Source: Geobacter sp. DSM 9736
Lineage (GTDB): Bacteria; Desulfobacterota; Desulfuromonadia; Geobacterales; Geobacteraceae
Assembly: GCF_900187405.1 (NCBI RefSeq)
Contig: NZ_LT896716.1
Location: 3,162,753-3,226,752 of the forward strand
Length of the DNA: 64,000 bases
Direction: 5' to 3'
The notes below the pieces were generated by a model. The model had not been told where the DNA came from and did not search any database. It saw only the letters and a list, made by a program, of their open reading frames with translations. Below are positions 18,207 to 40,524 of this stretch, piece after piece. The position numbers and the translations under genes are program-made. Position 1 is the stretch's first letter, and each line of letters opens with the position of its first letter.

Positions 18207-18217
18207 GGGACGCTATC

Positions 18218-21200: not shown

Positions 21201-24200
21201 GGGAGGACCGAGGTCTTGCTCTGGCTCTCGATGCAGCGGGAGATCCTTACGTAGCCGGGTTCGTCACCAACACGCAGGGGAACCGTGACTTTGTCCTCAT
21301 AAGGTACATCGGCTCCTCCGGTACCGCCATCAGGCAGTGGGTTCGCACCTTTGACGGCCCGTCCCACGGGAATGACTGGGCTGCCGCTGTCGAAATTGAT
21401 CCGGTGGACGGATTTGCCGTCGTGGCGGGAACCACTTCCACCGGCCCCGACGACAGAGACTTCTGCCTGATCAGATACGCTGCCACTGGAGCGGAACTTT
21501 GGCAGAGAACCCTTCAGCGCCCCCTGACCGATGAGGTGGTGGCGGGGATGAGGGTGGACAATTCCGGAAACATCTACATAACCGGAGACACTGGGGACGG
21601 AGTAACAACAGATTCTCTTACGGTAAAATACAATCACGAAGGCGCGGTCATCGACGCTGCGCTGTACCAGGGTACTGCCGGCGGCTTCGACCAGTCGGCC
21701 GCACTTGCCGTCAACTCACTTGGGGAGGCGTTCATCGCAGGCTATACCACGAACGCGTCGGGAAATGCCGACTACCTCGTGTACCGGATGTCGGCTGAAC
21801 AGCTCCCGGCACCCTACCCGTTCACCCAGACCCCGCTCTACACCACGCTGGCTCTTGCCTGGACCGACAAGTCATCAGTCGAGGACGGATACGTGATTAA
21901 GCGGAGGAGCGGTATCTGCATTGACGACGATTCCGACAGCTCCTGGGTAACCGTTGCTTCTCCGGGGCCGAACGTCACAACTTATACTGACACCAATCTT
22001 TCACCGGGTACGACCTACTGCTATCGTATCAACTCATACAGAGGGAGTGTTCCTTCCCGCATGGTAAAGCGGGAGGTGATGACGCTCATGCCTCCGGCTC
22101 CCGGTGATTTCTCGGCAACTCCCGTGAATACGACCAGGATCGACCTTGCCTGGACCGATACGACCAGCGGCGAGAACCAGTTCCGGATCGAGCGTTGTAC
22201 CGGCGCTTCGTGTACTGATTTCGTGCTGCTCGGAACGGCACAGGCAAACGCCACCTCATACGAGGACATGACTGTCTGCAGCGCTACGCCGTATCGCTAC
22301 CGGCTCACGGCCATAGGTCCGAACTGGGTTTCGGAGCAGGCGATGGCATCCGGAGTTACGCAGGCTCCGAGAGCTCCCGAGGGTCTTGCCGCCCTAAGGG
22401 TGTCGGAGGCGGAAGTGCGGCTGCAGTGGAGCGATGTGTCGAGCGACGAAGGTGGATTCAGGATCGAGCGGTGCGTGGGGGAGGGGTGCAGTGATTTTGT
22501 GCCGGTCGGTACGGCTACTGAAAACGCGACATCTTACAACGACTCGGCTGGGCTGGGTGCGGGTGCCACCTATCGGTATCGGGTAAAGGCGGTAAAGAGC
22601 GCCATATGCTCATGGGAGAGCCCTCCGAGCGGCATAGCGGAGGCGACTACTGCTGTGACGGCGCCCGGCGGTCTTGCGGGAGCGGCCGTGAGCACGACCC
22701 GGGTCGACCTTGCCTGGACCGATACCACCGCGTCGGAGACCGGTTTCGTCATAGAGCGTTGTACGGGTGCGGGTTGTACATTCGAAACCTTGGATGCCGG
22801 TTTCCCCGTGACGGTGAACTACAACACAGACCACTGGAGCGACCATGGGGCCTGCAGTTCCGCCACCTATACCTACCGCATAAGGGCGGTAGACCGCGCT
22901 CTGCCGATGGACGGTGGCGGAGCCTGGAGCAAACGCGCACCGGTGGCTATTTCGAATTTCCAGCCCTACTTCCAGACACGGGTGGTGGTTCCCTTCAATG
23001 CAGGAATGAAAACCGACTTCGGAGATATCCGGTTCTTCGACGCCCGCGACAACACTCAGCTCCCCTATTGGCTTGAATCCAAGGTGGATGGTGTATCCGC
23101 TACGTTCTGGATCAAGACGAGGGGCACGAACTCGGTATATCTTTACTACGGCAATCCCCTCGCAACTAGCGCCGCCAGGGGATCGGATACCTTCGAATTT
23201 TTCGAGGATTTTTCCGGCACTGTCATAAATTCCGGCAAATGGAATATTGTTAATCCCACGTATTTTCGCCAGGATGGCGAGTTGATAGCCACCGGCGGTA
23301 CGGGAAACTGGGACAGCGGTCTCTACAGCACGTTCTCCTTTGCCCGCCCCTTCACTTTCGAAGTTGACCAGTACGTCACCGGCGGCAACGACATGATGTT
23401 AGGCGCCAAGGATTCCGGTAGCGGCATCCATTTCGGCGATTTCGTCCATGCCGGGTACCTTACGGGTTCATCGAACAACATGTACGTGTACGAAGATGGG
23501 AACAACAGGGGGTACCGAAGTCTCTCGATTCCACTTAACACATGGAGAACCTTCAGGTTCGATGTTCTCTCCACCGGTGCCGGATACTGGCAGGGACCAA
23601 GCTTGGGCTCCATGAGCCGGTATTACGACAGTACCTACAGCAACGAGTCGCCGCTAAGGATCGGTTTCGTTACGGCAGCCCAGGCGTTCAAGTGGGATAA
23701 TGCCCGCGTGCGCAGGTACGCTACTCCTGCGCCGGCGTCGTCGATAGGCGCACAGGAGGCCGCTCCCGCGCTCTCCGGTTCCTGGGATAGCGACTACAGC
23801 AACACCTCCGTAGTAACACTTCCTACCCCCGGAGCGCCTACCGATCTTTCTGCGATAAGGGTGAGCGAGATCGAGGTCAAGCTCCAGTGGACCAGGAACA
23901 GCACCGATGACTCCGGTTTCCATATCGACAGGTGCACGGGAGAGGGGTGCGATTTCAGCACGAAGGTAACTTTTACGGCCGCAGCCGGCAGCACAGAGTA
24001 TCGTGATGTGGATGTAGTTTTCGGGACAGCCTACACCTACAGGGTTTCAGCCTTCAAGTCGGCGGCTTGCGGGTGGGAGACATCACCGAGCGCCGCGGCG
24101 TCCGCCACCACGTCGCTGCTTCCGCCGGCGGCAGCGGCCGCCGAGGCTTCCATCGGCAATGACTGCAACGATCTCCGGTTCATGGACGATAACGCAACGT

Positions 24201-27200
24201 CCCTGGAATACCATATCGAATCGGGCTGCAATACAGCGGCAACACGTGTATGGCTGCGCGTTCCCTCGGTCCCGAGCGGCAGCAAGCAGATCTTCCTCTA
24301 TACCGCGAATCCTCCTGCTTCCGCAGTCAGCAATCCTGCCGCGGTCTTCGATTTCTATGAAGATTTCAGCGGATCAGCTCTGGATGGCGGGAAATGGGTG
24401 GAGCTGGATACGGCCGCCAACTACCTGACGGTGAACGGTGGCCTGAAGGCTAGTGGGGGAGCAGGTTCATGGGGAAGCGTCGGCCTTTACAGCGTACCCA
24501 GTTTTCCGAGGCCGTTCGTACTTGAAGCCGCGCATTACCGGAGCGGCGGCAGCTACATGATGCTCGGCCTGAAGGATACCTCCACGTATTCAAGCCTGAG
24601 CTACTACCCCTACATGAGTTACCCTGTTTACGACGGTAATGGAAACCGCCTGCAGGTCTATGAGAGTGGCACGTCACGCGGCGATAACCTGAGGGGCATA
24701 CAATCGGGAACATGGCAGTATTACAAGATCGATGTCCTGCCCAATAGTGGCGCCAAGTATTATCATGGCAGCGCCTTGCAGTCGCTTACTCCCTTTTACG
24801 AGGGGACGCACAGTACGGCCTCTCCCCTGAAGGTGGGTATTTTGAACAACAACCAGGCATTCAGCATGAATATGGTGCGGGTGCGCAAATATGCGAACCC
24901 TGAGCCGGTGGCAACGCCCGAGCAGGAAGGTTACGGTTCATACCTCCTTTCGGAAGGTTCCTGGTTTGCCCGGCGTCCGATCACCATTTCCAATGCTGGT
25001 CCTGCCCAGACCGATTACCAGGTTGCGGTTATCCTTGATACGACTTCGTCGGCCGCGGATCGGATAGCCCTTTCATGGAGCGATACCACCGGCTCCGAAA
25101 CCGGCTTCGCGATTGAGCGATGTGCCGGAGCAGCCTGCGGGTTCGAGTCTCCAAGCCGGTTTATGGCTGCGGCGAACGCGACCAGTTACGTTGACTGGGC
25201 CGTCGCAAATGCCGGGGCGTATTGCTACAGAGTGAGAGCAGTACGGGAAGGCGTCTGGGAAGCTCCCTGGTCGGAAATCGTATGCGCTGCCACCTCGACT
25301 GCGACGGCACCTGCCAATCTAACCGCCAGTGCATCGGAGACGAAGGTGGATCTCGCCTGGTCGGACACCACCACGGGTGAAAACGGCTTCAGGATAGAAC
25401 GCTGCACCGGTGTTTCGTGTGATTTCACGACCATTGATCCCGGCTTCCCCGTCACCGTCGGAATGAATTCAACCTCGTATACCGACACTGCCGTCTGCAG
25501 TAATGCATACCGATATAGAGTAGAACCTTTCAAGGCCGGTCCGGGAGGATGGAGCGCTCCCCTTTATAGCAACATAGCTGATGCAGTCACCAGGCTGCCG
25601 TCGGCTCCGACCGCACTGGCCGCCACCAGAGCATCCGAAACAGAGGTGAACCTCGTCTGGTCTGACACGACGGGGGACGAGTCCGGCTTCAGAATCGAAA
25701 GATGCGAGGGTTCTACTTGCGATTCTTTCACGGAGATAGGCACCGTGACTGCCAATGTCACCAGCTTCAGCAGTATCGGACTGAAGCCCGGGACTTCCTA
25801 TCGTTTCCGGGTCCGCGCCTTTAAAACCGCCGCCTGTGGGTGGGACAGCCCCTACAGTGAGATTGCCGTCGCTATCACGGATGTAGTGCCCCCTTCCGGG
25901 CTTACTGGTACGGCACCCAATACGACGCAGCTCAACCTTTCCTGGATCGACAATACGGTCAGCGAAACGGCATTCCTGGTGAACAGGTGCTCGCAAACGA
26001 ACTGTGATTTCAGCGTCAGCGACTCCGGATTCCCGATACCTCTTCCTGCAAATTCGACGACGTGGAGCGATTCCTCGGTCTGCGAGAGCTCTGCATACCG
26101 TTACCGCATAGGCGTCCTGAACAAAGGCCTGTCGCTGGACGGCAGCGGCACATGGACGAAGAGAAAGCCGCTGAACTTTACGAATTTCAAGGCGGGGTTC
26201 CTTGCCAGGGTCACAATTCCTTATGCCTCGGGAATGAAAAACGACTTCTCCGACATTCGCTTCTATGATGAAGGAGCTTACAAGGAGTTGCCTCACTGGA
26301 TCGAATCCAGGACAGACGGGGTTTCAGCCACCGTATGGCTGAAGACGGGCCCCACCAGCCAGGCATATCTCTATTACGGGAATGCTGCTGCGCAAAGTGC
26401 AAGCAGCGCTGCCGGCACGTTCGGCAATGGACTGATGGGGTTCTGGCCTATAAACGAGGTAAATGGAACGGTCACGGGAACTACCGCAGACCTGAGCGGA
26501 CAGGGGAATGATCTCGCGCTCAACGGCTTCATCGGGCCGTACGGTATTATCAGCGGTGGGCGATACGGTAATGCGATGTCGCTGGATGGCATAAATGATT
26601 TCATGAAAAAGGACGCCGTCAGCCTTCCCACCGGTAGTACAGCAACAATAGAAGCTTGGATTTACCCGAAAAGTTACGCGGAAGCCGCCTATAACGGCAT
26701 CGTATCATTCGGCAACAGAAGCTCCCGCGACTCTCTGCTGCTCAGCATCCAGAACACCGGCCGCCCGAGCATGGCTACCTGGGGAAACGACTTCGTTCCT
26801 TCCTCCGGTCCCATTGCTACGCTCAATGCCTGGAATCATATTGCGGTCACCGTCAACGGCACTGCCGTCACTCTCTACATGAATGGCCAGGCAGTGAGCG
26901 GTGTATTGACATATCAACCTTCGTTCCAGTCCAAAAACCTCTCCATAGGGTCCACTGACTACACCCCCGGCCGCCTGTTCAACGGCTACATCGACGAAGT
27001 GCGCATATACAATCGCGCTCTCACGGCGGCTGAAATCGCTTCCCGCTATGCAACCGTCCCGCCGGTCGTGCAGCTGGGTGTCGAGGAGACTGATCCGGGT
27101 TATGTTTTTGCTGCAGCGTATGACCATGTTTACAGCCTTCCAGCTTCCGCAACTATGCCTGCAAAGCGTACTCCCGGCGGGCTCAACGCGACAAGGGCGT

Positions 27201-29233
27201 CGGAGGTCCAGATCAACCTCAGCTGGTCAGACAGCAACAACGATGAAACCGGTTTCAAGATTGAGCGTTGCGAAGGGTCCGGCTGTACAGACTTCATCCA
27301 GATCGATACGGTTGCGGCAAATACCCTGAATTACTCCGATACCAACAGGGACGCAAACCTGAAGCCCAATACCATATATCGTTACCGTGTACGTGCTTAC
27401 AAGACTGCTTCCTGCCCATGGGACAGCAACTACAGCGCCATTGCGCAGGCCGAAACTACAGTTTTGGGACCCGCATCGCTTGCCGCTTCAGCAGTGAATA
27501 CTACCCAGATAAATCTCACCTGGAGCGACCGGACCGTTTCAGAGAGTGGTTTCCTTATCGAACGCTGCACCGGTTCAGCGTGTGATTTCAGCACCAAAAA
27601 TACTTTCCCCGTCGGACCTAACATAACGTCATGGTCCGATACGACCGTTTGTAACTCCGGGATTTACAGATATCAGGTAAAAGCGGTGAAGCGAGGACTC
27701 TCTCTGGACGGGGATGGAACCTGGACCCGGCGTGCACCCCTTTCCATCAGCGACTTCAGGGCAGGGTTCCAGGTCAGGATCACCGTGCCGTACGATCCCG
27801 ACATGCGGAACGATTTCGCCGATATCCGTTTCTTCGATGCAACTGCCAACCTTGAGCTTCCGTACTGGGTGGAAGCCAAGACAGACGGGGTATCCGCGGA
27901 AGTGTGGATCAAGACCGGGAAGAACAACAACATCTGGCTCTATTACGGGAATCAACAGGCAGCCAGTGCGGCAAACGGTGCCACTGTCTTCGATTTCTTC
28001 GATGATTTTGCAGGCACAGCTATAGACACTTCAAAGTGGAATATTGTCGATGGGACCGGCTTCAGTGTTTCGGGCGGATTCCTCCATGGCACCAGCACTA
28101 CCGGAAGAATTACCTCCAGGACATCGTTCTCCTCGGGAATCGTCCAGGAGGTGAAGGCCAAGGCAACGTCGCTGGCGCCCAACGGGCAGGTGATGGCCGG
28201 ATTCTACAACTCCTACTACAACAACCTGGGTTTCCTCGATCATCCCGGCAGCGCCCACTATTCCAATAATGGAAGCTGGACAGCCTACGGAATAGAAATT
28301 CCTGCGAGCATGATGCTGTACAGTCTGACAGTCAGGGATTCTTCCACCGTCAGTCTGAAAATTCACAATCTGGATGTGCCTACTCCTTTCTGGAACGTGG
28401 GGGATGTGGGTAATACTGTTTCAGGCGAGGTGATCGCGCTCGGCAGACGGTACGACAGTGACGGATACAATGGGCAAACCTACACCGCCGACTGGGACTG
28501 GGTGCGGGTGCGGAAGTACGCCTCCGTCGAGCCCGCAGTCCTGCTGGGCGCAGAGGAAGAGTCCACAGGTTTCGTCTTTACCGTTCTCTGGACCAGCCCA
28601 TACAGCATCATTGCCAGTGCCACTGCGCCTACCCCCGCCATCCCCGGCAATTTTTCGGTCGCAGCGGTTACGGACACGCAGATAAACGTGACCTGGACCG
28701 AGACAATCCAGGACGAGGATGGGTTCAAGCTTGAGCAATGCTCGAGCAACGGGTGCACTTCGGATGCTGACTTCACACAGATAGTTCAGGCGGGGCCAAG
28801 CGTGGTGAGACATGAGGTAGGGGGCCTGAATCCCTCTAGCACCTACTGTTTCCGCCTCAGGGCAACGAAGGCAGCCTCATGCGGCTGGGATACCGCGTAT
28901 ACCCCCATTGTATGCGATACCACCTTCTCTGCCCATCCGATCAATCTGAATGCTTCGGCTGAAGGTTCGTTCAAGGTCCTCCTGACCTGGAATGATGTCT
29001 CTACCGACGAGGACGGCTTCGAAATCCAGGCGAAGGTGTGGAATGGGGAGTGGGTAAGAGTGGCCGCTGTCCCTAGCAACAGCACCTCCTATACGGTGCG
29101 GTTCGGCATCGAGCCCAAGATGAACTATACGTATCGCGTAAGGGCAATAAGGGGAGAAGACAATTCCCCCTTCAGCAACGAAGCGAGTGCGACTACACCG
29201 CCATATGCAGGGAATCACGGCACGTGTCAGTGA
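18218..29233 (+). CDS. Giant secreted FN3 / beta-propeller / DUF2341 / LamG protein
   Basis: A 3671-residue surface or secreted protein. After a basic stretch and hydrophobic signal (VLSYLLTLALVVPMLSY), propeller-type repeats (VAVDANNDVIVSGY pattern) fill about residues 70-1190, interrupted by one FN3 domain. The rest alternates FN3 repeats, about 14 in all, most carrying a cysteine pair (RIERCTGxxC) and often a third Cys in ACGW, with DUF2341-type jelly rolls (IRFFDA...LPYWLE...VYLYYGN) at roughly 22.9-23.2, 24.1-24.3, 26.2-26.4 and 27.8-28.0 kb, and one LamG domain (26.4-27.1 kb). Two DUF2341 copies are truncated. I use the ATG at 18218, after GAGGGA; the frame opens at 18164 inside the cytochrome gene. 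No cell-wall or membrane anchor is visible at the C-terminus (NHGTCQ). It is likely to interact with the cytochrome or a surface polymer (inference). Confidence 0.85.
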   Translation: MIRTNRWMTIFGGKMMNYQMPAFEKRQAHLRCKRLGRVLSYLLTLALVVPMLSYPSLSLAKGGDVHWQLRDTVRGKQEIVASTADSDSNVIAVGFTNFRNAASTDEDYWVVKLRSDGSGMAWNASYDRRGGADRAVAVAVDANNDVIVSGYAWNGTDNDIHTIKYSGATGTVLWQNTYSGVANDIATSVSIDRVNNMVYVGGYAQNASGNDDYLILKYDNAVAGAENAPQQVISYGGANGGPDRLMSLSAGVNGFAVTGQTWNSSSSQFDCLTQKYDFSGNKVREWRYQSGKGVVGNFVQVDAQGNVIVSGTVEGELDRDVYTAKYTASTGMTTWQHTYNGVFDDVPTGMYVDVAGDVYITGYTWTAEGNNDILTMRYNGTTVNPAGDLIWTKSFNSAIDNSDIAAPTGIVVDEALYGDVYVTGYTIANGFSDFQTIKYKKENGNILWFRSFNGAENRNDRPVGISLSAQQGVSVIGWSDNTKVLAEGEDSNPMFPLDGGEATATGGSATSVVNSGKSWSANQWTGYTVRITAGANSGAAGYIIANSGTTLTVAQPFSHPVTAGDTYVIVGSKSSITDGTKSWAVDQWAGYHVRMTSGANNGAVRRVVGNTASTLTVDVEFGSAVAVGDSYVIFDKEDYDTYLIKYDRGRINRPTNLVAETMVKDGTGHYAIRLSWVDNSANEEGFRIERRLGENGAWVPVTTVSPGTTEFLDTGLDEGNYYYYRVWAYNAATIDDPDYSNEAHALAVIVYFDTPTWSHTYNSEFNLEDYATAIAIGPDDHPVVTGKSDSDLIGMYDYLTRKLNRADSTLMWSSRYDSMQNEMDIATCIAIDGSNNAYVSGYSSLYYDPVGQNVNSVFTMKYPSSGPPSQWGAQYNGPGGIDDRSTAVTSTTDGSSIVVTGYGKNPGLNEDIYLVKYGPNPSLDQYGNALPVWSAVPFDGGGDDFPTAVAIAPDGNIFVSGYRQNGTSYDLFLAKYEGVTGALIWTDTYDGGSNGEDRGLALALDAAGDPYVAGFVTNTQGNRDFVLIRYIGSSGTAIRQWVRTFDGPSHGNDWAAAVEIDPVDGFAVVAGTTSTGPDDRDFCLIRYAATGAELWQRTLQRPLTDEVVAGMRVDNSGNIYITGDTGDGVTTDSLTVKYNHEGAVIDAALYQGTAGGFDQSAALAVNSLGEAFIAGYTTNASGNADYLVYRMSAEQLPAPYPFTQTPLYTTLALAWTDKSSVEDGYVIKRRSGICIDDDSDSSWVTVASPGPNVTTYTDTNLSPGTTYCYRINSYRGSVPSRMVKREVMTLMPPAPGDFSATPVNTTRIDLAWTDTTSGENQFRIERCTGASCTDFVLLGTAQANATSYEDMTVCSATPYRYRLTAIGPNWVSEQAMASGVTQAPRAPEGLAALRVSEAEVRLQWSDVSSDEGGFRIERCVGEGCSDFVPVGTATENATSYNDSAGLGAGATYRYRVKAVKSAICSWESPPSGIAEATTAVTAPGGLAGAAVSTTRVDLAWTDTTASETGFVIERCTGAGCTFETLDAGFPVTVNYNTDHWSDHGACSSATYTYRIRAVDRALPMDGGGAWSKRAPVAISNFQPYFQTRVVVPFNAGMKTDFGDIRFFDARDNTQLPYWLESKVDGVSATFWIKTRGTNSVYLYYGNPLATSAARGSDTFEFFEDFSGTVINSGKWNIVNPTYFRQDGELIATGGTGNWDSGLYSTFSFARPFTFEVDQYVTGGNDMMLGAKDSGSGIHFGDFVHAGYLTGSSNNMYVYEDGNNRGYRSLSIPLNTWRTFRFDVLSTGAGYWQGPSLGSMSRYYDSTYSNESPLRIGFVTAAQAFKWDNARVRRYATPAPASSIGAQEAAPALSGSWDSDYSNTSVVTLPTPGAPTDLSAIRVSEIEVKLQWTRNSTDDSGFHIDRCTGEGCDFSTKVTFTAAAGSTEYRDVDVVFGTAYTYRVSAFKSAACGWETSPSAAASATTSLLPPAAAAAEASIGNDCNDLRFMDDNATSLEYHIESGCNTAATRVWLRVPSVPSGSKQIFLYTANPPASAVSNPAAVFDFYEDFSGSALDGGKWVELDTAANYLTVNGGLKASGGAGSWGSVGLYSVPSFPRPFVLEAAHYRSGGSYMMLGLKDTSTYSSLSYYPYMSYPVYDGNGNRLQVYESGTSRGDNLRGIQSGTWQYYKIDVLPNSGAKYYHGSALQSLTPFYEGTHSTASPLKVGILNNNQAFSMNMVRVRKYANPEPVATPEQEGYGSYLLSEGSWFARRPITISNAGPAQTDYQVAVILDTTSSAADRIALSWSDTTGSETGFAIERCAGAACGFESPSRFMAAANATSYVDWAVANAGAYCYRVRAVREGVWEAPWSEIVCAATSTATAPANLTASASETKVDLAWSDTTTGENGFRIERCTGVSCDFTTIDPGFPVTVGMNSTSYTDTAVCSNAYRYRVEPFKAGPGGWSAPLYSNIADAVTRLPSAPTALAATRASETEVNLVWSDTTGDESGFRIERCEGSTCDSFTEIGTVTANVTSFSSIGLKPGTSYRFRVRAFKTAACGWDSPYSEIAVAITDVVPPSGLTGTAPNTTQLNLSWIDNTVSETAFLVNRCSQTNCDFSVSDSGFPIPLPANSTTWSDSSVCESSAYRYRIGVLNKGLSLDGSGTWTKRKPLNFTNFKAGFLARVTIPYASGMKNDFSDIRFYDEGAYKELPHWIESRTDGVSATVWLKTGPTSQAYLYYGNAAAQSASSAAGTFGNGLMGFWPINEVNGTVTGTTADLSGQGNDLALNGFIGPYGIISGGRYGNAMSLDGINDFMKKDAVSLPTGSTATIEAWIYPKSYAEAAYNGIVSFGNRSSRDSLLLSIQNTGRPSMATWGNDFVPSSGPIATLNAWNHIAVTVNGTAVTLYMNGQAVSGVLTYQPSFQSKNLSIGSTDYTPGRLFNGYIDEVRIYNRALTAAEIASRYATVPPVVQLGVEETDPGYVFAAAYDHVYSLPASATMPAKRTPGGLNATRASEVQINLSWSDSNNDETGFKIERCEGSGCTDFIQIDTVAANTLNYSDTNRDANLKPNTIYRYRVRAYKTASCPWDSNYSAIAQAETTVLGPASLAASAVNTTQINLTWSDRTVSESGFLIERCTGSACDFSTKNTFPVGPNITSWSDTTVCNSGIYRYQVKAVKRGLSLDGDGTWTRRAPLSISDFRAGFQVRITVPYDPDMRNDFADIRFFDATANLELPYWVEAKTDGVSAEVWIKTGKNNNIWLYYGNQQAASAANGATVFDFFDDFAGTAIDTSKWNIVDGTGFSVSGGFLHGTSTTGRITSRTSFSSGIVQEVKAKATSLAPNGQVMAGFYNSYYNNLGFLDHPGSAHYSNNGSWTAYGIEIPASMMLYSLTVRDSSTVSLKIHNLDVPTPFWNVGDVGNTVSGEVIALGRRYDSDGYNGQTYTADWDWVRVRKYASVEPAVLLGAEEESTGFVFTVLWTSPYSIIASATAPTPAIPGNFSVAAVTDTQINVTWTETIQDEDGFKLEQCSSNGCTSDADFTQIVQAGPSVVRHEVGGLNPSSTYCFRLRATKAASCGWDTAYTPIVCDTTFSAHPINLNASAEGSFKVLLTWNDVSTDEDGFEIQAKVWNGEWVRVAAVPSNSTSYTVRFGIEPKMNYTYRVRAIRGEDNSPFSNEASATTPPYAGNHGTCQ

Positions 29234-29270
29234 GGCTGGTAACGTGATACAAAAAGAAAGGAGGAGCGCG

Positions 29271-29330
29271 ATGAAGAAGGCATATGCGAAGCCCCGGATA
29301 GTGTCCTGGGGAACAGTGCATCCCTGCTGA
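29271..29330 (+). CDS. Candidate RiPP precursor peptide for the GeoRSP-type maturase
   Basis: A 19-codon gene encoding MKKAYAKPRIVSWGTVHPC. It has the best RBS of the region (AAAGGAGG, seven bases before ATG) and is followed 24 bases later by a strong terminator, so it is built as the last gene of the cytochrome-FN3 operon. Y5, P8, I10 and G14 fit YxxPx[LI]xxxG, the leader signature bound by PqqD-like recognition domains in lasso-peptide biosynthesis. Only five residues follow the glycine, ending in a C-terminal cysteine, so this is not an ordinary lasso precursor. A PqqD protein, a radical SAM-SPASM enzyme and a SPASM-only partner lie at 37.9-40.1 kb. Translation is strongly supported; that it is the maturase substrate is inference. 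W13, H17 and C19 are conspicuous candidate modification residues. Confidence 0.75.
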   Translation: MKKAYAKPRIVSWGTVHPC

Positions 29331-29354
29331 TCGTTTTTTGGCTGGGTTTGCATT

Positions 29355-29388
29355 ACAGGACATCCCGCCCGGGATGTCCTGTTTTTTT
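29355..29388 (+). terminator. Strong rho-independent terminator
   Basis: A perfect 13-bp inverted repeat (29355-29367 with 29370-29382) with an uninterrupted T-run to 29388. It closes the cytochrome-FN3-peptide transcript, so the downstream genes need their own promoter; I see no convincing one in 29389-29517. Confidence 0.92.
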
Positions 29389-29517
29389 CTGTCTATATCT
29401 GCTCACATACCGTATGACCCAGCGGGATAGTCTGTCGAAACCTCACGATAACCTTTCCTATACATGAAAGTACTCCTATGGTACATTAAGCCGCACGAAT
29501 CAGAGGGCTTTCAATCT

Positions 29518-31983
29518 ATGCTCAAGGCATTCATTCAGATACTGCTCCTCATTCTAATTCCAGCGGCGTCCTCAGCGGAAATTCTCAAGGCGGATACGGT
29601 CTGGAAGGGGCAGATTGTGCTTACCGAGGATGTGGTGGTTCCTCAGGGGGTTACACTTACCGTGGAGCCGTCCACAGTGGTAATTTTTTCCGCTGCGGAA
29701 AGCACCAAAACCGATCCGGAGTATCTTTCGCCCTTGACGGAACTGACGGTGAGGGGGAAGCTGCAGGTGCTCGGGACCGAGCAGGGGCCGGTGGTGTTCG
29801 GGCCGGAGGGGGAGAGGAAGGCCGAGGTATGGGCCGGAATAATAATCGATGGCGGGACTGCATCCTTCAGCTTCTGCCGGGTAACCGGTGCCGAGACCGC
29901 AGTGGCGGTCCTGAGAGGACGCGCCCACATTCTTGGGGGGGAGCTGAAGGGTAATCGGTACGGGACTACCGTCCATGGCCCAGATGCGGAGATTGTACTC
30001 AGGAATGCTCAGGTAAAAGATAACGACTACGGCGTTTTTTCCTTTGATGGTGGCCGAGTCAGCACCGAGCTCTCGACTGTGGCCGGGAACAGAAAGAAAG
30101 ACCTGTTTTCCGGTAAAAGCAAGCGCAGAGCTACGGAACTAGGATATGAAGCGCCGCCTCCCCGGCCGCTTCCTCTTCGTTATAAGGATGCCGTTCTTCT
30201 TGGAGAGACGGTCTGGCAAGGAACGGTTGAGGTCAGCGGGCTCGTGAGGGTCCCGGAGAACAGCCGGCTAGTGGTGCTGCCGGGTACGGTGGTGGAGTTC
30301 CGAAGAAAAGACACGAATGGGGACGGCATAGGTGAAAACGGCCTCCTCATCCAGGGCCGTTTAATCGCAAAAGGAACGCGAAAACAGCCCATTTTCTTTC
30401 GATCGTCGGAGAAGGAACGGAAACCCGCTGACTGGGATGCCCTCAATATCATGAACAGCGATGGGGCCCAGAACCTCATAGAGTATTGCCAGATCGAGAA
30501 TGCCTACAGGGGACTCCATTTTCATTTTTCCAACGTGGCGGTGACAAACACGGTACTTCGTAACAACTTTCGGGGCATCCAGTTCCAGGAGTCGATGGTC
30601 GAGTTGCGTGGAAACTACCTGTATGACAATCGGAGCGGCATTCAGGGGCGTGATTCCGAGGTCCTGCTCCTGGGCAACATGATCGGCAGCAACCTCATGG
30701 GCGTAAACTTTTACCGGGTGAATCTCTCAGCCGCACGCAACAGATTTGCAGGCAATGTCCGGGAAGGGGTGCGGATCAGGGAGAGTGTTCCCAGATTCGA
30801 GGAAAACTTTATAGAGGGGAACCGGTTTGGCCTGCTGGTCGCCGACTGCGTTTACGGGAGCTTCCGCGGTAACGTGATAGTCAACAACGGGGAAACAGGT
30901 TTTTCTGTGAAAACCTCGGACAACCTCGACATTTCAGGCAATTATATCTCCCAAAATGGACTGAACGGTTTAAACCTCCAGGACGTTCGCTCCGCCATCA
31001 AGGGTAACGTCGTCGCCGACAATGGGGAGCGCGGGATCGGCATTATTTCTTTCGACGGCGTTGTGACCGGCAACAACCTGGAGGGCAACGGGTTGTATGC
31101 TGTTGACCTCGAAGGTTCGGCGGATGTCGTGGCCTCCGGCAACTGGTGGGGGACGAGCCGCCCGGAAGAGGTTGTCATGGACCGGCGCCGTGATCCCGCC
31201 CGAGGGTCCGTCATACACAAGGACCCAGCCCCGTGTCCGCCGCTCTATGTCTGGCCTGTAGCGGATATTCCCGGGGATGTCGCGTGGCGTGGGAGCCTTG
31301 ACGTGCTGGCGCGGGTGACAGTTCTCCCTGGTGCCACCTTGCGGATCTTTCCCGGAACGGAGGTACGTTTCGGAAAGGAAGTCGGGATGGCAGTAAAGGG
31401 CAGAATACTTGCAACTGGAGAAGCCGGCAGGGAAGTCAGATTCACCTCCATTGAAGGCGGCGAGACCGCGGCCTGGGATGAGATACTGCTGGAGCACGCC
31501 GATGGAAGCACCTTCACGCACTGCAGGTTCAATAATGCAACATGGGGATTACACAGTCATTTCACGAATTTGTCCATCACGGATAGCTATTTCACCAGGA
31601 ACTACGGGGGCATCAGGTTCAGGAGCGGTCCCGTCGAGATCAGCCGGTCCCGTTTCTCAGAGAACACGATCGGAATCCGGTCCTTTCGAGGCAATGCCAA
31701 CATAAGCCGGAACGAGATCACGGGAAATGAGACGGGAATATTCGTCCGGGAAAAAGGTAGCGGACTCTCGATATGCGATAACAACATCTTTTCAAACGCC
31801 GGCTACAACATCCGCGTGGGAGACTTCAACGACGAGGACGTAAGCGCGCCAAACAACTGGTGGGGGGTTGCGGACCCCGTAACGACTATCTTTGATGGGA
31901 GGCAGGAACCGGGTATCGGGATGGTTCAGTTCGAACCCCCATTAACCAAGCCGCTCGAATTCCGGGGGGGAGTGAGGCAGTGA
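29518..31983 (+). CDS. Exported right-handed beta-helix protein (NosD-like)
   Basis: An 821-residue secreted parallel beta-helix. Signal peptide MLKAFIQILLLILIPAASSA. Three tandem modules each open with a W-x-G...VPxG-x-L-x(3)-PGT-x-V-x-F strand pattern (about 29.60, 30.21 and 31.27 kb), followed by PbH1-type N/G-rich coils such as NRFAGNVREGV and NNWWG closures. The frame is open from 29464, but the ATG at 29518 begins the signal peptide and has a GAGGG 10-14 bases upstream. Such proteins bind polysaccharide or assist surface-protein assembly; the ligand here is unknown. It resembles the lipoprotein at 35624. Confidence 0.8.
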   Translation: MLKAFIQILLLILIPAASSAEILKADTVWKGQIVLTEDVVVPQGVTLTVEPSTVVIFSAAESTKTDPEYLSPLTELTVRGKLQVLGTEQGPVVFGPEGERKAEVWAGIIIDGGTASFSFCRVTGAETAVAVLRGRAHILGGELKGNRYGTTVHGPDAEIVLRNAQVKDNDYGVFSFDGGRVSTELSTVAGNRKKDLFSGKSKRRATELGYEAPPPRPLPLRYKDAVLLGETVWQGTVEVSGLVRVPENSRLVVLPGTVVEFRRKDTNGDGIGENGLLIQGRLIAKGTRKQPIFFRSSEKERKPADWDALNIMNSDGAQNLIEYCQIENAYRGLHFHFSNVAVTNTVLRNNFRGIQFQESMVELRGNYLYDNRSGIQGRDSEVLLLGNMIGSNLMGVNFYRVNLSAARNRFAGNVREGVRIRESVPRFEENFIEGNRFGLLVADCVYGSFRGNVIVNNGETGFSVKTSDNLDISGNYISQNGLNGLNLQDVRSAIKGNVVADNGERGIGIISFDGVVTGNNLEGNGLYAVDLEGSADVVASGNWWGTSRPEEVVMDRRRDPARGSVIHKDPAPCPPLYVWPVADIPGDVAWRGSLDVLARVTVLPGATLRIFPGTEVRFGKEVGMAVKGRILATGEAGREVRFTSIEGGETAAWDEILLEHADGSTFTHCRFNNATWGLHSHFTNLSITDSYFTRNYGGIRFRSGPVEISRSRFSENTIGIRSFRGNANISRNEITGNETGIFVREKGSGLSICDNNIFSNAGYNIRVGDFNDEDVSAPNNWWGVADPVTTIFDGRQEPGIGMVQFEPPLTKPLEFRGGVRQ

Positions 31984-32705
31984 GTGCGCGGGTCTTCGGG
32001 AGCATGGTCATATTCCTGCTTTGGCTTGCAGTTACAGGTGCTTCCCATGCATTTGTCCTGAGCGGCACGATAAAGGACGGTGACGGAAAGCCTCAGGAAG
32101 GGGCAGAGGTTTTTGCCTACGATTCCCTTCTAACCCGACGACCTGCCGATTTTATCTCTTCAAAGACCGCCAAGGACGGCCGATTTTCCATTAAACTTCC
32201 GGAGCGGCAATACTGGGTAGTTGCACGGGTCAGAGGAGGCGATAGATTCGGCCCACTTATGCCCGGAGACAAGCATTCCGGCGAACCGGTGGAGGTGGAG
32301 CCACCTCGTGAAGGTGAGGCACGGATGGACTTTACGGTTGCGGACATCCGGGAAGCAGCCCAGTCGCGACGAAAGACAAGGGACGATTATGTGCGGGTGA
32401 GCGGGCGCATCCTTACAATGAAAGGAACCGCCGCAACCGATGCCTATGTCTACGCCCTGCCTCACGACCAGCAAGCTGGGATTCCTCCGTTCATTTCATC
32501 GTGGAGCAACGAAAATGGAGAGTATGTTCTTTTTCTTCCGCCCGGAAGCTACAGAATCGGAGCTGCAATGGAATTCCCACCCGATTCAAGACAGCTTTCG
32601 GATGTGGTCCTTTCAACAGGAAAAGAGGCCCATGCGGATGTGCGGTTGCCACATGATCCTCGTTCCGATGCTCAGGGTCATCCCGACGAAGAATCTGACG
32701 AATAA
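31980..32705 (+). CDS. Exported protein with two carboxypeptidase-regulatory-like domains
   Basis: A 241-residue secreted protein. It starts at GTG, overlapping the previous stop as GTGA, so it is translationally coupled. A signal peptide (GSMVIFLLWLAVTGASHA) precedes two small beta-sandwich domains of the carboxypeptidase-regulatory/Cna-B type: FVLSGTIKDGDGKPQEGAEVFAY and VRVSGRILTMKGTAATDAYVYA, each followed by a DGRFS or NGEYVLFLPPG strand. These domains are structural or binding modules. The acidic tail (HPDEESDE) is low complexity. Function unknown beyond the periplasmic or surface location. Confidence 0.7.
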   Translation: MSARVFGSMVIFLLWLAVTGASHAFVLSGTIKDGDGKPQEGAEVFAYDSLLTRRPADFISSKTAKDGRFSIKLPERQYWVVARVRGGDRFGPLMPGDKHSGEPVEVEPPREGEARMDFTVADIREAAQSRRKTRDDYVRVSGRILTMKGTAATDAYVYALPHDQQAGIPPFISSWSNENGEYVLFLPPGSYRIGAAMEFPPDSRQLSDVVLSTGKEAHADVRLPHDPRSDAQGHPDEESDE

Positions 32706-32751
32706 ATGCGCCGCTGTCTGCACGCGGGATAAGTAGTGCCGGAGGTTGACG

Positions 32752-33309
32752 ATGAAACGCACGATGGTTGTTGTACTGCTGTTGCTTCTGCTTTCAGCGG
32801 GCGAGTCGGTTGCCTGTGTCGGCAGAACCCTCTATGTAGGGGTCACGCCGACGCATAGCGAAGTTCTCCTCGCGGAGATGATCTCCGTGCTGGTAAACGA
32901 ACGGACCGGGACGACGGTGAAGATTCTTCAGTTCAAGGATGCCCGGGAGCTGTATGGGGCAGTGAAAAAGGGGGAGGTAGGCCTGATCATAGAGAGCCCT
33001 AACCGCGCTTCAGGCCTTACCGGGAAAGGGAAGGATCTCTCCGGGAAAGCAGCGTACGACCTGCTGAAGAACGAGTACCGCAGGAGCATGAATCTCGTGT
33101 GGCTCGACCCGATCGGAGGAAGTGCCTATGCGGCTCCGGTCATTTCCATGGAAACACTCAGCAACCTTCCTGCACTACCTAAGCTGATCAACAAGCTGTC
33201 GAATATCTTCAGCGATGAGACATACAGCAAGGTCGTAAAGGCAGCCGGATCAGACGAGAAACCTCGAAAAATCGCTCGTGATTTTCTGAAAGCGAAGAAA
33301 TTGATATGA
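32752..33309 (+). CDS. Small periplasmic binding-protein-like protein
   Basis: A 185-residue exported protein. An ATG six bases after GGAGG begins a signal peptide with a long Leu run; a cysteine follows near the cleavage site (SVAC), so lipidation is possible but the lipobox is poor. The mature part (LYVGVTPTHSEVLLAEMISVLVNERTG, then KGEVGLIIES) resembles the N-lobe of glycine-betaine/choline-type substrate-binding proteins, but it is too short for two full lobes. No ABC permease or ATPase lies nearby, so it probably binds or senses rather than transports. Confidence 0.55.
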   Translation: MKRTMVVVLLLLLLSAGESVACVGRTLYVGVTPTHSEVLLAEMISVLVNERTGTTVKILQFKDARELYGAVKKGEVGLIIESPNRASGLTGKGKDLSGKAAYDLLKNEYRRSMNLVWLDPIGGSAYAAPVISMETLSNLPALPKLINKLSNIFSDETYSKVVKAAGSDEKPRKIARDFLKAKKLI

Positions 33310-33328
33310 TCCGAGGCGCCTGGTTTCA

Positions 33329-34252
33329 ATGACCGGCGGAGCGGTCAAAAAGTCATATAAGTTTTTGGCCTCGACGGAACTTGCCGTTGTTCTGTTCCTC
33401 ATCGTCAGCCTTGTCGCCATCCCCGGCACATTCCTGGAGAACAGGGAAGTAGTTTACAAAAACCCGTTCTTCCTGGTGCTGCTTGCGCTGCTCGGGTTAA
33501 ACCTCGTCCTGTGCACCGTTCGCAGAATCAGAACGATTTCGAGGCCGGTTCTTATACTGCATGGCGGAGTGCTGTTGACGCTCGTGGGTTGCATTCTCAC
33601 TTCCTTCGGATTTGTGGGTACTGTTAACATCTACGAGGATACTTCCATCGATCAGGTGTACCGGTGGGATTTGCAGCGCGATGTGCCTCTCGGCATGGAG
33701 CTGAATGTTCGAAGAGTGAACCGGGAATATTATCCGGTGCCGGTCAAGGTAGGCGTATTGCGCGGTCAGGAAAAGGTTTCCCTTCACACCCTGAGAACCG
33801 GAGAAAGTTTCACTCTCGGCGAGTTTGAAGTTCTCGCGGACGATTTCGATGTAGCCGCCCAAGTTCTCCGTCTTACGGTGATGCAAGCCGGTCGAGTCGT
33901 CGGGACCTGTGATACGGCAGGTGCCGCTCATCTCCCACCGGAGTTTCCGTACCGGTTCAAGCTCGTCGCTTTCAGGGACCCCGTTCTCAAACGTCTCTGG
34001 GTAGACATTCTCCTTTCTGCTGAGGGCGCTGAGGCTAAGGGGGTTGCAGAGGTGAACCATCCCTTTACTTGGCGTGGTCTTCATTTCTACAATACGCAGG
34101 TAGCAAGAGATGAACAGGGCAGGACGTATGCCGGTATACAGGTCGTAAAGGATCCGGGCAGGCCGCTGGTATTCGCCGGGTTCGCGGTTATGTGCATTGG
34201 TGTGGTTTTATGTTTTATAAGGAGGTTTTCCAGGAAAAATCTATGGAACTGA
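33329..34252 (+). CDS. ResB-like cytochrome c biogenesis protein
   Basis: A 307-residue membrane protein of the ResB/Ccs1 family. Three N-terminal membrane segments (LAVVLFLIVSLVAIPGTFL; FFLVLLALLGLNLVL; VLILHGGVLLTLVGCIL) precede a periplasmic domain and a last segment near 34.17-34.22 kb. ResB works with a CcsA/ResC partner to deliver haem to apocytochromes in System II. No CcsA is visible here, so it may serve as a dedicated accessory for the cytochrome at 13659, using a ResC encoded elsewhere (inference). Confidence 0.8.
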   Translation: MTGGAVKKSYKFLASTELAVVLFLIVSLVAIPGTFLENREVVYKNPFFLVLLALLGLNLVLCTVRRIRTISRPVLILHGGVLLTLVGCILTSFGFVGTVNIYEDTSIDQVYRWDLQRDVPLGMELNVRRVNREYYPVPVKVGVLRGQEKVSLHTLRTGESFTLGEFEVLADDFDVAAQVLRLTVMQAGRVVGTCDTAGAAHLPPEFPYRFKLVAFRDPVLKRLWVDILLSAEGAEAKGVAEVNHPFTWRGLHFYNTQVARDEQGRTYAGIQVVKDPGRPLVFAGFAVMCIGVVLCFIRRFSRKNLWN

Positions 34253-35046
34253 GCACTTTTGGCATCTTCGGCATATACGCGGCGGCTTTTCTTCTCGGCG
34301 CTGCGCACTCTCTGGAGCCGGGGCACGGGAAGACGGTCGTCGCCGCCTATCTCGTCGGCTCCCGCGGAAGGCCCATCGATGCGGTCATCCTTGGGCTGGT
34401 CGTCACGTTCACGCACTCGTTCAGCATTATCCTTCTTGGGGTAGTGGCTAAAATGTCCTCCAGGTACTTCACCGACGACCAGTTGCATGGATACCTCGGG
34501 ATCGTCGCCAGTCTCATCATCCTCGGTATCGGTATCTGGATGCTAGTAACACGGTGGCCCCGCAGGGGCGGGCATGGGCATCATCACCATTTTCACCTGT
34601 TTCATCGTCACGGCCATCATCACGGCCACGACCACCACCATCATGATCACGACCACAGCCATGACCATAGTCATCACCATAGCCACCACCCGGTGATTGA
34701 TGATCCTGCCATAACGGCAGATCGCAAGCTCGGCCCCCTCGGCCTGATTCTGCTGGGAATTTCAGGTGGGATTGTGCCGTGCCCGGCAGCCTTGGCGATT
34801 CTGCTTGCTTCGGCATCGGTAGGCGATATAGGAAAGGGGCTCGCTCTGGTCCTTGTTTTCAGCCTCGGGCTGGCAGCGTCATTGGTGGCCATCGGGCTTG
34901 TCGTAGTGAGCGGAGTGAAGGCAGCGCAAAAGTTTGTCGATACCGAGCGGCTGGCACCGCGGATAGCTTTCGTCAGCGCAGTCATTGTAACGTTGATCGG
35001 AGCAGTGACCCTCTATTCCTCCATCAGTCACTTCAGGATGCTCTAG
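34243..35046 (+). CDS. NicO/RcnA-type nickel-cobalt transporter
   Basis: A 267-residue integral membrane protein of the NicO family. The first helix carries AHSLEPGHGKTVVAAYLVGSRG, the signature region of RcnA-type exporters, and the third has a THSFSIILLG block. A very His/Asp-rich loop (about residues 110-150, 34.57-34.70 kb) separates the two membrane halves and should bind Ni, Co or related ions. The ATG at 34243 overlaps the ResB end by 10 bases and has AGGA in front; an upstream ATG at 34192 is possible. Presence in a cytochrome/radical-SAM locus is unusual; the metal and direction of transport are inferred from the family. Confidence 0.78.
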   Translation: MELSTFGIFGIYAAAFLLGAAHSLEPGHGKTVVAAYLVGSRGRPIDAVILGLVVTFTHSFSIILLGVVAKMSSRYFTDDQLHGYLGIVASLIILGIGIWMLVTRWPRRGGHGHHHHFHLFHRHGHHHGHDHHHHDHDHSHDHSHHHSHHPVIDDPAITADRKLGPLGLILLGISGGIVPCPAALAILLASASVGDIGKGLALVLVFSLGLAASLVAIGLVVVSGVKAAQKFVDTERLAPRIAFVSAVIVTLIGAVTLYSSISHFRML

Positions 35047-35047
35047 C

Positions 35048-35617
35048 ATGGGTACGGGACGTTCATTTTTCCTTCCGGCGTCGCTTCTTGTTGCGCTCTT
35101 CATGCCTGCTCTTCTCCCTTTGCCCGCTTCGGCTCATCCAGAATCGGGATTTCTTCCCGATGCCATTGCCGAAACCGAATACAAGATCGTCCTCGATCTT
35201 AATCCAAGGGACAATGTGACACGCAACAAGCTGGGAGTGGTTCTCTACCGCAAGAACAAGTTGAAGGAAGCGGAGAGGTGCTTCGGAGACGTCCTTCGGG
35301 CGGAGCCGCGCAACTTTGACGCACATGACGGCATGGGGCTCGTGAGGATAAAGGAGCGCAAATACGAAGAGGCTGTTTCCTGGTTCCGGAAGGCAATTGG
35401 AATTGCACCCGACGATACCATGGTGCACTACAACATGGGGTTCGCTTTCGAGCAGATGGGTAAGCTGAAGGAGGCCGAGGCAGCTTACCGGCGTAGCCTT
35501 GAGGTGAACGCCGGTCTGATACGCAAGGGAATGAACCGGGAGGTTGAAGCCGGCAAACGCGCCATTCTCGTCTCCGCGCTTACGTCCCTTAACAACAGGA
35601 TGAAACAGACAAGGTGA
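35048..35617 (+). CDS. Exported TPR protein
   Basis: A 189-residue protein with a signal peptide (FFLPASLLVALFMPALLPLPASA) and about three tetratricopeptide repeats (NKLGVVLYRKNKLKEAERCF; DGMGLVRIKERKYEEAVSWF; YNMGFAFEQMGKLKEAEAAY). TPRs are protein-binding scaffolds. It starts one base after the NicO stop and ends just before the beta-helix lipoprotein, so it belongs to the same transcript. Partner unknown; cytochrome or beta-helix assembly is a guess from context. Confidence 0.75.
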   Translation: MGTGRSFFLPASLLVALFMPALLPLPASAHPESGFLPDAIAETEYKIVLDLNPRDNVTRNKLGVVLYRKNKLKEAERCFGDVLRAEPRNFDAHDGMGLVRIKERKYEEAVSWFRKAIGIAPDDTMVHYNMGFAFEQMGKLKEAEAAYRRSLEVNAGLIRKGMNREVEAGKRAILVSALTSLNNRMKQTR

Positions 35618-35623
35618 TCTCTT

Positions 35624-36643
35624 TTGCTTAAGCTTATGAACGAAGCGTTATTCAAGAAGCTACTGGCCGGCGTCGGGAAAAAGGTGGTAGTCATCTCCAC
35701 GGCGCTCTTTTCCGCCTGCATCTCGGGTTGCAGCGACAACGCCACCGAGATCGGGATGACCACCATCACCAAGGACACCACATGGTCCGGTGTGGTCAGA
35801 GTGACCGGTGATGTTTATGTCCCCCCGGGGGTGACTCTCACCATCGCTCCGGGAACCACCATAAAGTTCAAGCGTATCGACCAGTCGAGCGGCAGAAACC
35901 TGTTCGGCTACGATTCCCCCTATTACCCTGAGGCGGAGCTGATAATCCGCGGACGTTTCGTCGCTCGGGGCACACCCAAGGATATCATTGTTTTCACCTC
36001 CGCCGAGCGCGATGCCCGCCCGGCTGACTGGGGGGCCATAAACCTCCTTGGCAGCAGCGGCAATGCTGTCGAGTACTGCAAAATCCTTTTCGCCTACAAT
36101 GGGCTTCACGCCCACGGCGCGGCCGTGCAGGTGCATCATAACGAATTTTCTAAAAACGCTGTCGCCATAAGCATAAAAAAGGAAGAGGAGATTCCCGGGG
36201 TCCCCTGGTTCGGCATCGCTTCCGACCTGAACGCCACCCACAATCGCATTTACAACAACAAGGGGGGGATTACCTTCCGGAATTCAAAGGCGGTCATAAG
36301 CCACAACACGATCAAAGACAACAAGTTCTTCGGGATTTGGCCAAAGGAGCAGAGCGAAGCGACGATCAGCAACAACGATATCAGCGGTAACCTTAAGGGC
36401 ATCTACCTCTACAAGTCTTCCGGCACGAAGATCAACAGCAACAACATCTACGACAACAAGGAATACAACATAGCCATCGCCGACGAACAGGAGACGGATG
36501 TGGATGCCCGGAACAACTGGTTCGGGACGATCAACATGCAGAAGATAGGAGAACTTGTCTTCGATAAGAAATTTGATCCCGATGTTGCCGCCGTCGTCGT
36601 CGAGCCGATACTGAAGGAAAAGGTTCGGGAGGCAGGGGAATGA
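35624..36643 (+). CDS. Beta-helix lipoprotein (NosD-like)
   Basis: A 339-residue lipoprotein: the signal ends in ISGC (lipobox), so the cysteine near residue 30 should be acylated. The mature part begins with the same module as the protein at 29518 (DTTWSGVVRVTGDVYVPPG, then LTIAPGT) and continues as N/G-rich right-handed beta-helix coils (HNRIYNNKGGITF; ISNNDISGNLKGIYLY; ARNNWFG). The first start is TTG at 35624, seven bases after AAGGTG; an ATG four codons later is the alternative. It is coupled to the MFS gene by ATGA. Confidence 0.75.
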   Translation: MLKLMNEALFKKLLAGVGKKVVVISTALFSACISGCSDNATEIGMTTITKDTTWSGVVRVTGDVYVPPGVTLTIAPGTTIKFKRIDQSSGRNLFGYDSPYYPEAELIIRGRFVARGTPKDIIVFTSAERDARPADWGAINLLGSSGNAVEYCKILFAYNGLHAHGAAVQVHHNEFSKNAVAISIKKEEEIPGVPWFGIASDLNATHNRIYNNKGGITFRNSKAVISHNTIKDNKFFGIWPKEQSEATISNNDISGNLKGIYLYKSSGTKINSNNIYDNKEYNIAIADEQETDVDARNNWFGTINMQKIGELVFDKKFDPDVAAVVVEPILKEKVREAGE

Positions 36644-37908: not shown

Positions 37909-37922
37909 CTTTCGGAGGCTTT

Positions 37923-38237
37923 ATGGCAACAATTTATCGGAATCCGGACGTAATGTGGCGGGAGGAAGACGACGCCCGCGACCGGGCAGCGGACGGGCTG
38001 GAGCGTGGTGAGGATATCGAGGACATAGGTACATCGCTGCTCTTTGCCAATGGCGTGATGGTGACCCTCAACATGCTCGGGACGGAAATCTGGAAAACAT
38101 GCGAGGGGAAGACTTCGGAGGAAATTGTCTTGGAGCTGCTTCGGGAGTTCGATGTGGAGGAGGACGTGTTGCGGGAAGACGTGCGCCAGTTCCTGGAGGG
38201 ACTTGCGGCGCAGGGGTTTATCACCTATGGGAAATGA
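37923..38237 (+). CDS. PqqD-family peptide chaperone (GeoRSP type)
   Basis: A 104-residue PqqD-like RiPP recognition protein. Typical features: WREEDD near the N-terminus, GTSLLFANGVMVTLNMLGTEIWKTC (the wing with conserved LN...IW) and a C-terminal helical part ending FLEGLAAQGFI. Such domains bind the leader of a precursor peptide and present it to a radical SAM enzyme. RBS GGAGG precedes the ATG. The downstream gene starts 11 bases before its stop. In public annotation this gene order carries the label GeoRSP. The candidate ligand is the 19-mer at 29271. Confidence 0.88.
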   Translation: MATIYRNPDVMWREEDDARDRAADGLERGEDIEDIGTSLLFANGVMVTLNMLGTEIWKTCEGKTSEEIVLELLREFDVEEDVLREDVRQFLEGLAAQGFITYGK

Positions 38238-39225: not shown

Positions 39226-39226
39226 C

Positions 39227-40105: not shown

Positions 40106-40201
40106 GAGCTAAAGGAAGACATTCCGGTGCCGATTAGTACACTCAAGCAGGACGTTGGCTGGTGAAGTAAAGCTAGCCGGCAATCCACCTTGGGACTGTC
40201 C

Positions 40202-40507: not shown

Positions 40508-40524
40508 TGTTCTTGCAGTTCCTT

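Follow-up and report, generated by a model that had tools for sequence, protein, structure and literature searches.

A gene of 19 codons in Geobacter sp. DSM 9736 encodes, with high probability, the precursor substrate of the GeoRSP maturation system, as judged from its own sequence, its relatives and the genes which accompany them. It is situated at positions 29271–29330 (+ strand) of the window, i.e., the whole stretch of 64,000 nucleotides which was analysed. The open reading frame begins with ATG at 29271, ends with TGA at 29328–29330 and translates to MKKAYAKPRIVSWGTVHPC. A ribosome-binding site (AAAGGAGG, 29257–29264, + strand) precedes the ATG by 6 bases, and an intrinsic terminator (29355–29390, + strand) begins 24 bases after the stop codon; it consists of a 12-bp stem (29355–29382), followed by a T run, and was the one terminator found in the region 29000–29600, compared to 0.3 expected in shuffled sequences. 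The gene starts 37 bp past the stop of an ORF for 3689 amino acids (18164–29233). Sequence, frame and signals were as described in the original prediction, which had emphasized the strong ribosome-binding site and the terminator behind the gene. The genome contains four copies of the peptide gene, at 3192023 (the gene at 29271–29330), 1495646, 3502745 and 1519309; the last one scored E 0.047 with a first profile and 1.1e-8 with a second profile.

The peptide family

Loci were fetched from named genomes with the radical SAM protein (rSAM). Thirteen of these 16 loci contained rSAM proteins of 47–75% identity and three were distant; L044–L046, with weak rSAM relatives (22–28% identity), were excluded from GeoRSP. 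Six of seven Geobacter-type loci have related tiny ORFs at a distance of 7.6–9.7 kb upstream of rSAM, two of these loci with two copies, and one Nitrospirae locus (L042) also has a related tiny ORF. The consensus of the family is MKKxYxxP[KR][VI]VGSxxVHPC-stop. With a peptide profile of 10 rows, 38 of the 141 genomes of the order gave a total of 89 sites (E <= 2.5e-5), up to 6 per genome.

The C-terminus is almost invariant. Among profile sites which were read without a pattern, 162 of 163 end with PC-stop. Within the order all 90 sites (the 89 at E <= 2.5e-5 and one at 0.047) end with [VIL][HY]PC-stop, 87 of them with VHPC; in genomes outside the order which were reached via rSAM, PC-stop is found at 32 of 33 sites (after removal from the original 35 of two rows at chance level, E 0.42 and 0.87), and all 40 sites outside the order from the phylum-wide search end with VHPC-stop. 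One copy in L201 continues with the four residues QGKL after HPC.

From the fetched DNA, 160 unique relatives were obtained, corresponding to 153 distinct ORFs and 132 distinct peptides, with a search pattern which required P at position -12 and the final PC; this number, as well as the 90 pattern sites (from 104), was reached after removal of places that had been fetched twice. Histidine at -3 occurs in 151 and valine at -4 in 149 of the 153 distinct ORFs, glycine at -8 in 147, serine at -7 in 113, and tyrosine at -15 in 150, the remaining three having F; position -6 is occupied by A (79), S (38), V (24) or G (7). The leader signature YxxPx[LI]xxxG, which had been proposed from the window copy, is therefore retained in part: Y, P (required by the pattern) and [VI] are kept, but not the xxxG portion, since position -6 is mostly A, S or V; the glycine of the family is located two residues after [VI], at -8, where the window copy has S. 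The tail is likewise longer than the TVHPC envisaged at first and comprises G-S-x-x-V-H-P-C. Tryptophan 13, suggested as a core residue, was rejected as such, being not conserved among the 153 ORFs.

At the fixed residues, synonymous codons vary freely (P at -12: CCG 65, CCC 34, CCA 32, CCT 22; V at -4: all four codons), which argues for selection acting on a peptide; the stop codons are TGA, TAA or TAG. The expectation that substitutions would be protein-like was thus borne out by the codon changes. Shine-Dalgarno-like motifs precede 159 of the 160 relatives, compared to 17% (422/2425) of the ATGs in seven of these sequences, and 151 of the 153 distinct ORFs have 17–20 codons plus stop. Half of the sites (45 of 90) have a terminator-like hairpin within 150 bp, a count without shuffled control. 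A chance ORF, which the original prediction had already dismissed, was rejected on account of the conserved relatives, the codon changes and the frequency of Shine-Dalgarno motifs.

Occurrence together with the GeoRSP enzymes

In 345 genomes of the phylum, peptide and rSAM were both present in 25, rSAM only in one, peptide only in two and neither in 317 (p 1.2e-34); the part of this sample outside the order gave 20, 1, 2 and 314, respectively. In some of the genomes the peptide and rSAM scores are those among the candidates scored. By their rSAM scores the genomes form two groups, 26 at 380–622 bits and the rest at <=193 bits; six genomes below the cut-off of 400 bits were counted as positive, since they are 187 bits above the next genome. 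The p-values given here and below are indicative only, since related genomes are not independent. Within the order, PqqD is over the cut-off in 33 of 141 genomes, and the peptide is present in 31 of the 33 (p 4e-22). Seven further genomes of the order have the peptide and no PqqD over the cut-off; two of them (G093 and G105) have rSAM over the cut-off, and when these are added, the peptide is present in 33 of 35 GeoRSP genomes of the order. Neither PqqD nor rSAM reached the cut-off in G014, G017, G020 and G100 (66–81% complete) and G103 (97%), which possess the peptide, nor did rSAM in G342 (81% complete) and G387 (96%), which also possess it. The reverse situation was met in G046 (a complete genome), G090 and G318, where the enzymes are present and no peptide was recognisable, even in a search for a hidden one.

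Outside the order, all six GeoRSP genomes which were fetched by rSAM similarity (47–66% identical) have the peptide, and two of them carry 14 and about 15 copies. The peptide by itself was also searched for in the phylum to which one of the six belongs, and 19 of 295 genomes were positive. This comparison of genomes shows that the recognisable peptide family tracks the predicted GeoRSP enzymes in two phyla. Two Nitrospirae genomes (L197–L202, L209–L213; the 14 and about 15 copies) deviate in that most of the peptides have an extra cysteine (CVHPC). These peptides adjoin secreted-looking proteins of about 260–640 amino acids, many of which, by eye, contain a Y-x-C-P motif, similar to YxxP, near a PGY end.

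Gene neighbourhoods

The GeoRSP genes in the window are located 8.6 kb downstream of the peptide gene on the same strand, and all genes in between are also on the + strand. They encode a PqqD-family peptide chaperone (37923–38237, +; TIGR04302, 162.9 bits, cut-off 100) with a predicted RRE fold, a radical SAM/SPASM protein with CxxxCxxC (38227–39225, +; TIGR04303, 607.1 bits, cut-off 400; start at 38227 assigned by eye, models run on 38239–39222) and a SPASM-domain protein without CxxxCxxC (39227–40105, +; TIGR04304, 297.6 bits, i.e., 2.4 under the cut-off of 300). Two of the three curated models are therefore over their cut-offs.

The intervening genes, all + strand, encode a right-handed beta-helix or NosD-like protein (29464–31983), which is a conserved neighbour, a CarboxypepD_reg-domain protein (31980–32705), an OpuAC-like substrate-binding protein (32746–33309), a ResB-like protein of the cytochrome c biogenesis family (33329–34252), a NicO/DsbD_2-like membrane protein (34192–35046; in 9 of 44 loci), a TPR protein (35048–35617; in 11 of 44 loci), a second beta-helix protein (35624–36643) and an MFS transporter (36640–37908). 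The family names of the ResB and DsbD_2-like proteins give a hint of cytochrome c biogenesis. The MFS transporter was considered as an exporter and rejected, since a similar gene was present in only one (L042) of 28 other loci compared; no peptidase or dedicated exporter was found among the genes scanned. Farther downstream (43610–51905) there is a possible defence island by its appearance, with an AbiEi-like protein (259 aa), a helicase-like protein (1091 aa) and a protein of 1373 aa in a row, named by eye.

When 44 rSAM loci were compared, which include two places counted twice (L043/L208, L041/L197) and several loci cut by contig ends, PqqD was found in 42, beta-helix proteins in 32, a PhnD-like binding protein in 29, a YedE-like protein in 28, CarboxypepD in 26, OpuAC in 22 and ResB in 20. 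A SPASM match was present in all 44; in 34 loci it is separate from the rSAM gene, and the sole match was inside the rSAM gene in 10 of 44 (L253, L254, L258–L262, L264, L266, L288), and the SPASM partner may therefore be dispensable or encoded elsewhere. Genes for the YedE-like putative selenium transporter and the PhnD-like binding protein recur regularly in GeoRSP loci, as in L256–L262 and L032–L037; L258–L262 contain in addition EB_dh/DMSO-reductase-gamma-like, HEAT and NapH-like proteins.

The peptide gene occupies several positions relative to these genes. It precedes the large beta-helix gene directly in the window, L031–L033, L114, L115 and L120, and follows the rSAM gene within 170 bp, on the same strand, in nine loci (L253, L254, L256–L261 and L208). 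The peptide of L208 reads MKYIKPKTLGISTVHPC and stands behind AAAGGAGG; the rSAM protein of this locus, 47% identical to that of the window, diverges most among the 13 close relatives. The original prediction had depended on conservation of the peptide beside other GeoRSP loci, and this was found in sequence as well as in place; the proposal at the centre of that prediction, a substrate for the PqqD/radical SAM/SPASM genes 8.6 kb downstream, is supported by the co-occurrence and by the adjacency to rSAM.

Probable recognition and proposed maturation

The PqqD protein of the window was modelled with AlphaFold (pLDDT 93.8, 13 sequences), and the top Foldseek matches of the model were complexes of the lasso peptide RRE TbiB1 with its leader (E 6e-4), followed by PqqD and another complex of a lasso B1 protein with its leader (E 4e-3 and 9e-3). 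By sequence, too, the best match in the PDB was TbiB1 (E 2.8e-5); for the GeoRSP rSAM enzyme, PqqE is the closest relative with a solved structure. YxxP is described in PMC12710340 as the lasso recognition motif which is recognised by RREs, and the same source gives W/Y/LxxP/L/I as the motif bound by the RRE group that includes PqqD, FusE, McjB and StsC. The conserved Y-x-x-P-x-[IV] of the family, seen together with the modelled fold, strongly suggests RRE recognition by the PqqD-like protein; the peptide is a candidate RiPP precursor, which would be modified and then released.

A sequence of events can be formulated, the first part of which is strongly suggested. The PqqD-like RRE would hold the peptide by Y-x-x-P-x-[IV] while the radical SAM/SPASM enzyme acts on the C-terminal G-S-x-x-V-H-P-C, with the assistance of the SPASM-only protein in those loci which have one. 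The VHPC end should then become one fixed molecule or prosthetic group, following the logic of PQQ and mycofactocin, and not a variable antimicrobial, since V-H-P-C is almost invariant while genomes carry anything from 1 to about 15 copies. The matured product would serve the giant proteins which are treated in the next section, i.e., multihaem cytochromes and FN3/Ig proteins.

The PQQ system (PqqA/PqqD/PqqE) is similar in having a precursor of about 20 residues, an RRE chaperone and a rSAM/SPASM enzyme; PqqA, however, has a Glu/Tyr core, which the GeoRSP peptide lacks. In the mycofactocin system, there is likewise a separate PqqD-like chaperone, MftB; the precursor MftA ends with VY. The GeoRSP peptide, in contrast, ends with VHPC and occurs in several copies beside possible clients; these are giant secreted-type proteins instead of nicotinoproteins, and no MftE-like peptidase was found among the GeoRSP genes scanned. 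With respect to the MftA family, four relatives of 20 amino acids had no NCBIfam match up to E 10. The likeness to mycofactocin as presented in PMC3023750 consists in the short precursor with a strongly conserved C-terminus, the PqqE-like rSAM enzyme with SPASM domain and a further layer of proteins, candidate clients in the case of GeoRSP, which is limited to the same genomes. A combination of this type, with the C-terminus fixed in two phyla and an RRE, led Haft to infer mycofactocin (PMC3023750).

Giant proteins beside the peptide genes

Upstream of the peptide gene, 139 of the 160 copies have an ORF on the same strand within 300 bp, 15 have none and six are at contig edges. Clustering of these ORFs gave 56 multihaem/FN3 giants or fragments thereof, 24 smaller proteins, 12 rSAM proteins and 10 Ig-type giants or fragments, the identities as cytochromes or FN3 proteins being based on counts of CxxCH and Pfam scans of examples; the others form small groups, and two proteins of the smaller type which were scanned contain CarboxypepD_reg. 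The giant in the window (3689 aa; 18164–29233, +) has DUF2341, fn3 and Laminin_G_3 domains and ends with ...PPYAGNHGTCQ; its end segment is part of alignment A4. From their domains and haem motifs, the giants would be secreted. Ig-like (Big_1) proteins with a lipoyl-type fold at the C-terminus were seen upstream of the peptide in L287 (4270–7461) and L255 (9124–11913). The two Ig-like giants which were scanned show a Pfam Biotin_lipoyl fold there; a lipoylated client was considered and discarded, with no conserved lysine visible by eye in ten sequences. In L103, L116, L137 and L138 the draft contigs break 64–198 bp upstream of the peptide, which suggests repeated ends of giant genes.

Two end profiles were constructed from giants adjacent to the peptide, A3 (22 rows, ...CH...QxWNxK[ST]xW) and A4 (10 rows, ...YxxGDGxC-x). 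Of 141 genomes, 24 have A3, and each of these also has the peptide (p 8e-17 against 40 positive genomes). Matches reaching the end of A4 occurred in 20 genomes, all of which have GeoRSP or the peptide (p 1.4e-13 against the same 40). The absence of A3 and A4 elsewhere is incomplete as a statement, because the profiles stem from peptide-adjacent giants and at most 42 and 40 candidates per genome, respectively, were scored, several negative genomes having had more. Fifteen A4 places were fetched; nine end with Cys plus one residue (L228 after extension), five are inside longer ORFs and one ends without Cys. Many FN3-type giants (29006–29230 in the window, A4 loci) have a cysteine which stands one or two residues before the end of the protein, as in GDGTCP. 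The giant multihaem cytochromes, L086 and the 21 other rows of A3, have an end rich in Trp and Lys, at which docking or modification might take place.

The peptide lies within 400 bp of 30 of 40 A3 matches and 11 of 38 A4 matches (the 38 having been picked by hand as reaching position 73 or more of the 76 profile positions). The association is thus strong at the level of genomes and looser at that of genes, as would be expected of clients which are served in trans. That the giant secreted-type proteins are clients of the matured product is suggested by the copies adjoining giants whose end segments were found only in genomes with GeoRSP or the peptide; we consider the chances of this proposal to be about even.

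The same observations could be read in a more intimate manner, namely that the matured 17–20-mer is bound or joined to the adjacent giant, as an anchor, a cross-link or a metal or haem site, instead of acting as a free cofactor. Copies standing directly behind giants, the restriction of two types of giant ends to GeoRSP or peptide genomes and the lack of a peptidase among the genes scanned are consistent with such a stoichiometric partner. However, 27 of 38 A4 giants and 10 of 40 A3 giants are without an adjacent peptide gene, some copies adjoin the rSAM gene only, and the peptide has no signal sequence by eye; this arrangement appears rather doubtful, albeit a serious candidate. A single matured product from V-H-P-C is favoured, because of the C-terminus fixed in two phyla, the RRE, the PqqE-like rSAM enzyme and the further set of proteins that is limited to the same genomes. 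A tentative and still more elaborate version would regard GeoRSP as another cofactor or prosthetic-group system derived from ribosomal peptides, besides PQQ and mycofactocin, in which the VHPC end of the 17–20-mers is converted to a fixed redox or metal/chalcogen centre and supplied gene by gene to the giant multihaem cytochromes and to adhesin-like proteins in bacteria of the Geobacter type, docking at WNxK[ST]xW and YxxGDGxC-x; as a whole, it is also doubtful.

Other possible functions of the peptide

Another type of chemistry would be that of a scaffold, in which the peptide carries sulfur or selenium on its C-terminal cysteine and feeds it to the product; peptidyl-Cys is processed in 3-thiaglutamate pathways. 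The terminal cysteine at 162 of 163 sites would suit this function, as would the YedE-like gene in 28 of 44 GeoRSP loci (the one in L258 passes TIGR04112, the model of a putative selenium transporter, with 340 bits at a cut-off of 200) and a cysteine-desulfurase-like gene in five distinct loci, of which that in L256 passes TIGR01977. YedE is described in PMC5322559 as found in organisms which use Se; according to the same source, however, YedE relatives also move sulfur compounds. Moreover, the GeoRSP genes of the window are without a nearby YedE, the genome having one about 38 kb before the window, and a Sec-type codon replaced the cysteine at none of the sites read. On balance, a role as sulfur or selenium scaffold is unlikely.

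The resemblance of the PqqD protein to lasso B1 proteins (TbiB1 and relatives) and the YxxPx[IV] motif, YxxP being the lasso recognition motif in PMC12710340, could point to a lasso peptide or another antimicrobial RiPP, and PMC4289311 reports clusters of the lasso type from Geobacter uraniireducens and Pelobacter propionicus. In contrast to lasso systems, no cyclase or leader (B2) protease was found among the window genes scanned (29464–41685), the tail is too short for a lasso, and it is almost invariant across phyla, whereas bacteriocin systems are stated to change fast (PMC3023750); this origin is thus highly improbable. Hardly more credible is a regulatory leader peptide (arrest or attenuator) which is no enzyme substrate at all, as the very small size, the P-C-stop end and the terminator behind the gene might indicate, but the downstream genes differ from copy to copy (by eye), the presence of the peptide tracks GeoRSP genomes, and an Rfam search of 28500–30000 gave no match.

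Conclusions

The peptide is very probably the missing substrate of the orphan GeoRSP enzymes. No NCBIfam or Pfam model matched the four relatives of 20 amino acids which were tried, and such genes can easily be missed by annotation, since most of them have 17–20 codons plus stop. A full-text search of the literature brought up no description of a GeoRSP substrate, which is not proof that the peptide is unpublished; term searches of PMC9062424 and PMC8326336 found mention of neither GeoRSP nor Geobacter. What appears to be new is a precursor family for a rSAM/PqqD system, with an unusual arrangement of many copies beside possible clients. An orphan radical SAM maturation system would thereby gain a substrate which is accessible by synthesis and open to immediate tests in vitro. 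In addition, the GeoRSP system would be tied to giant multihaem cytochromes, a class of proteins which is of interest in microbial metal reduction.
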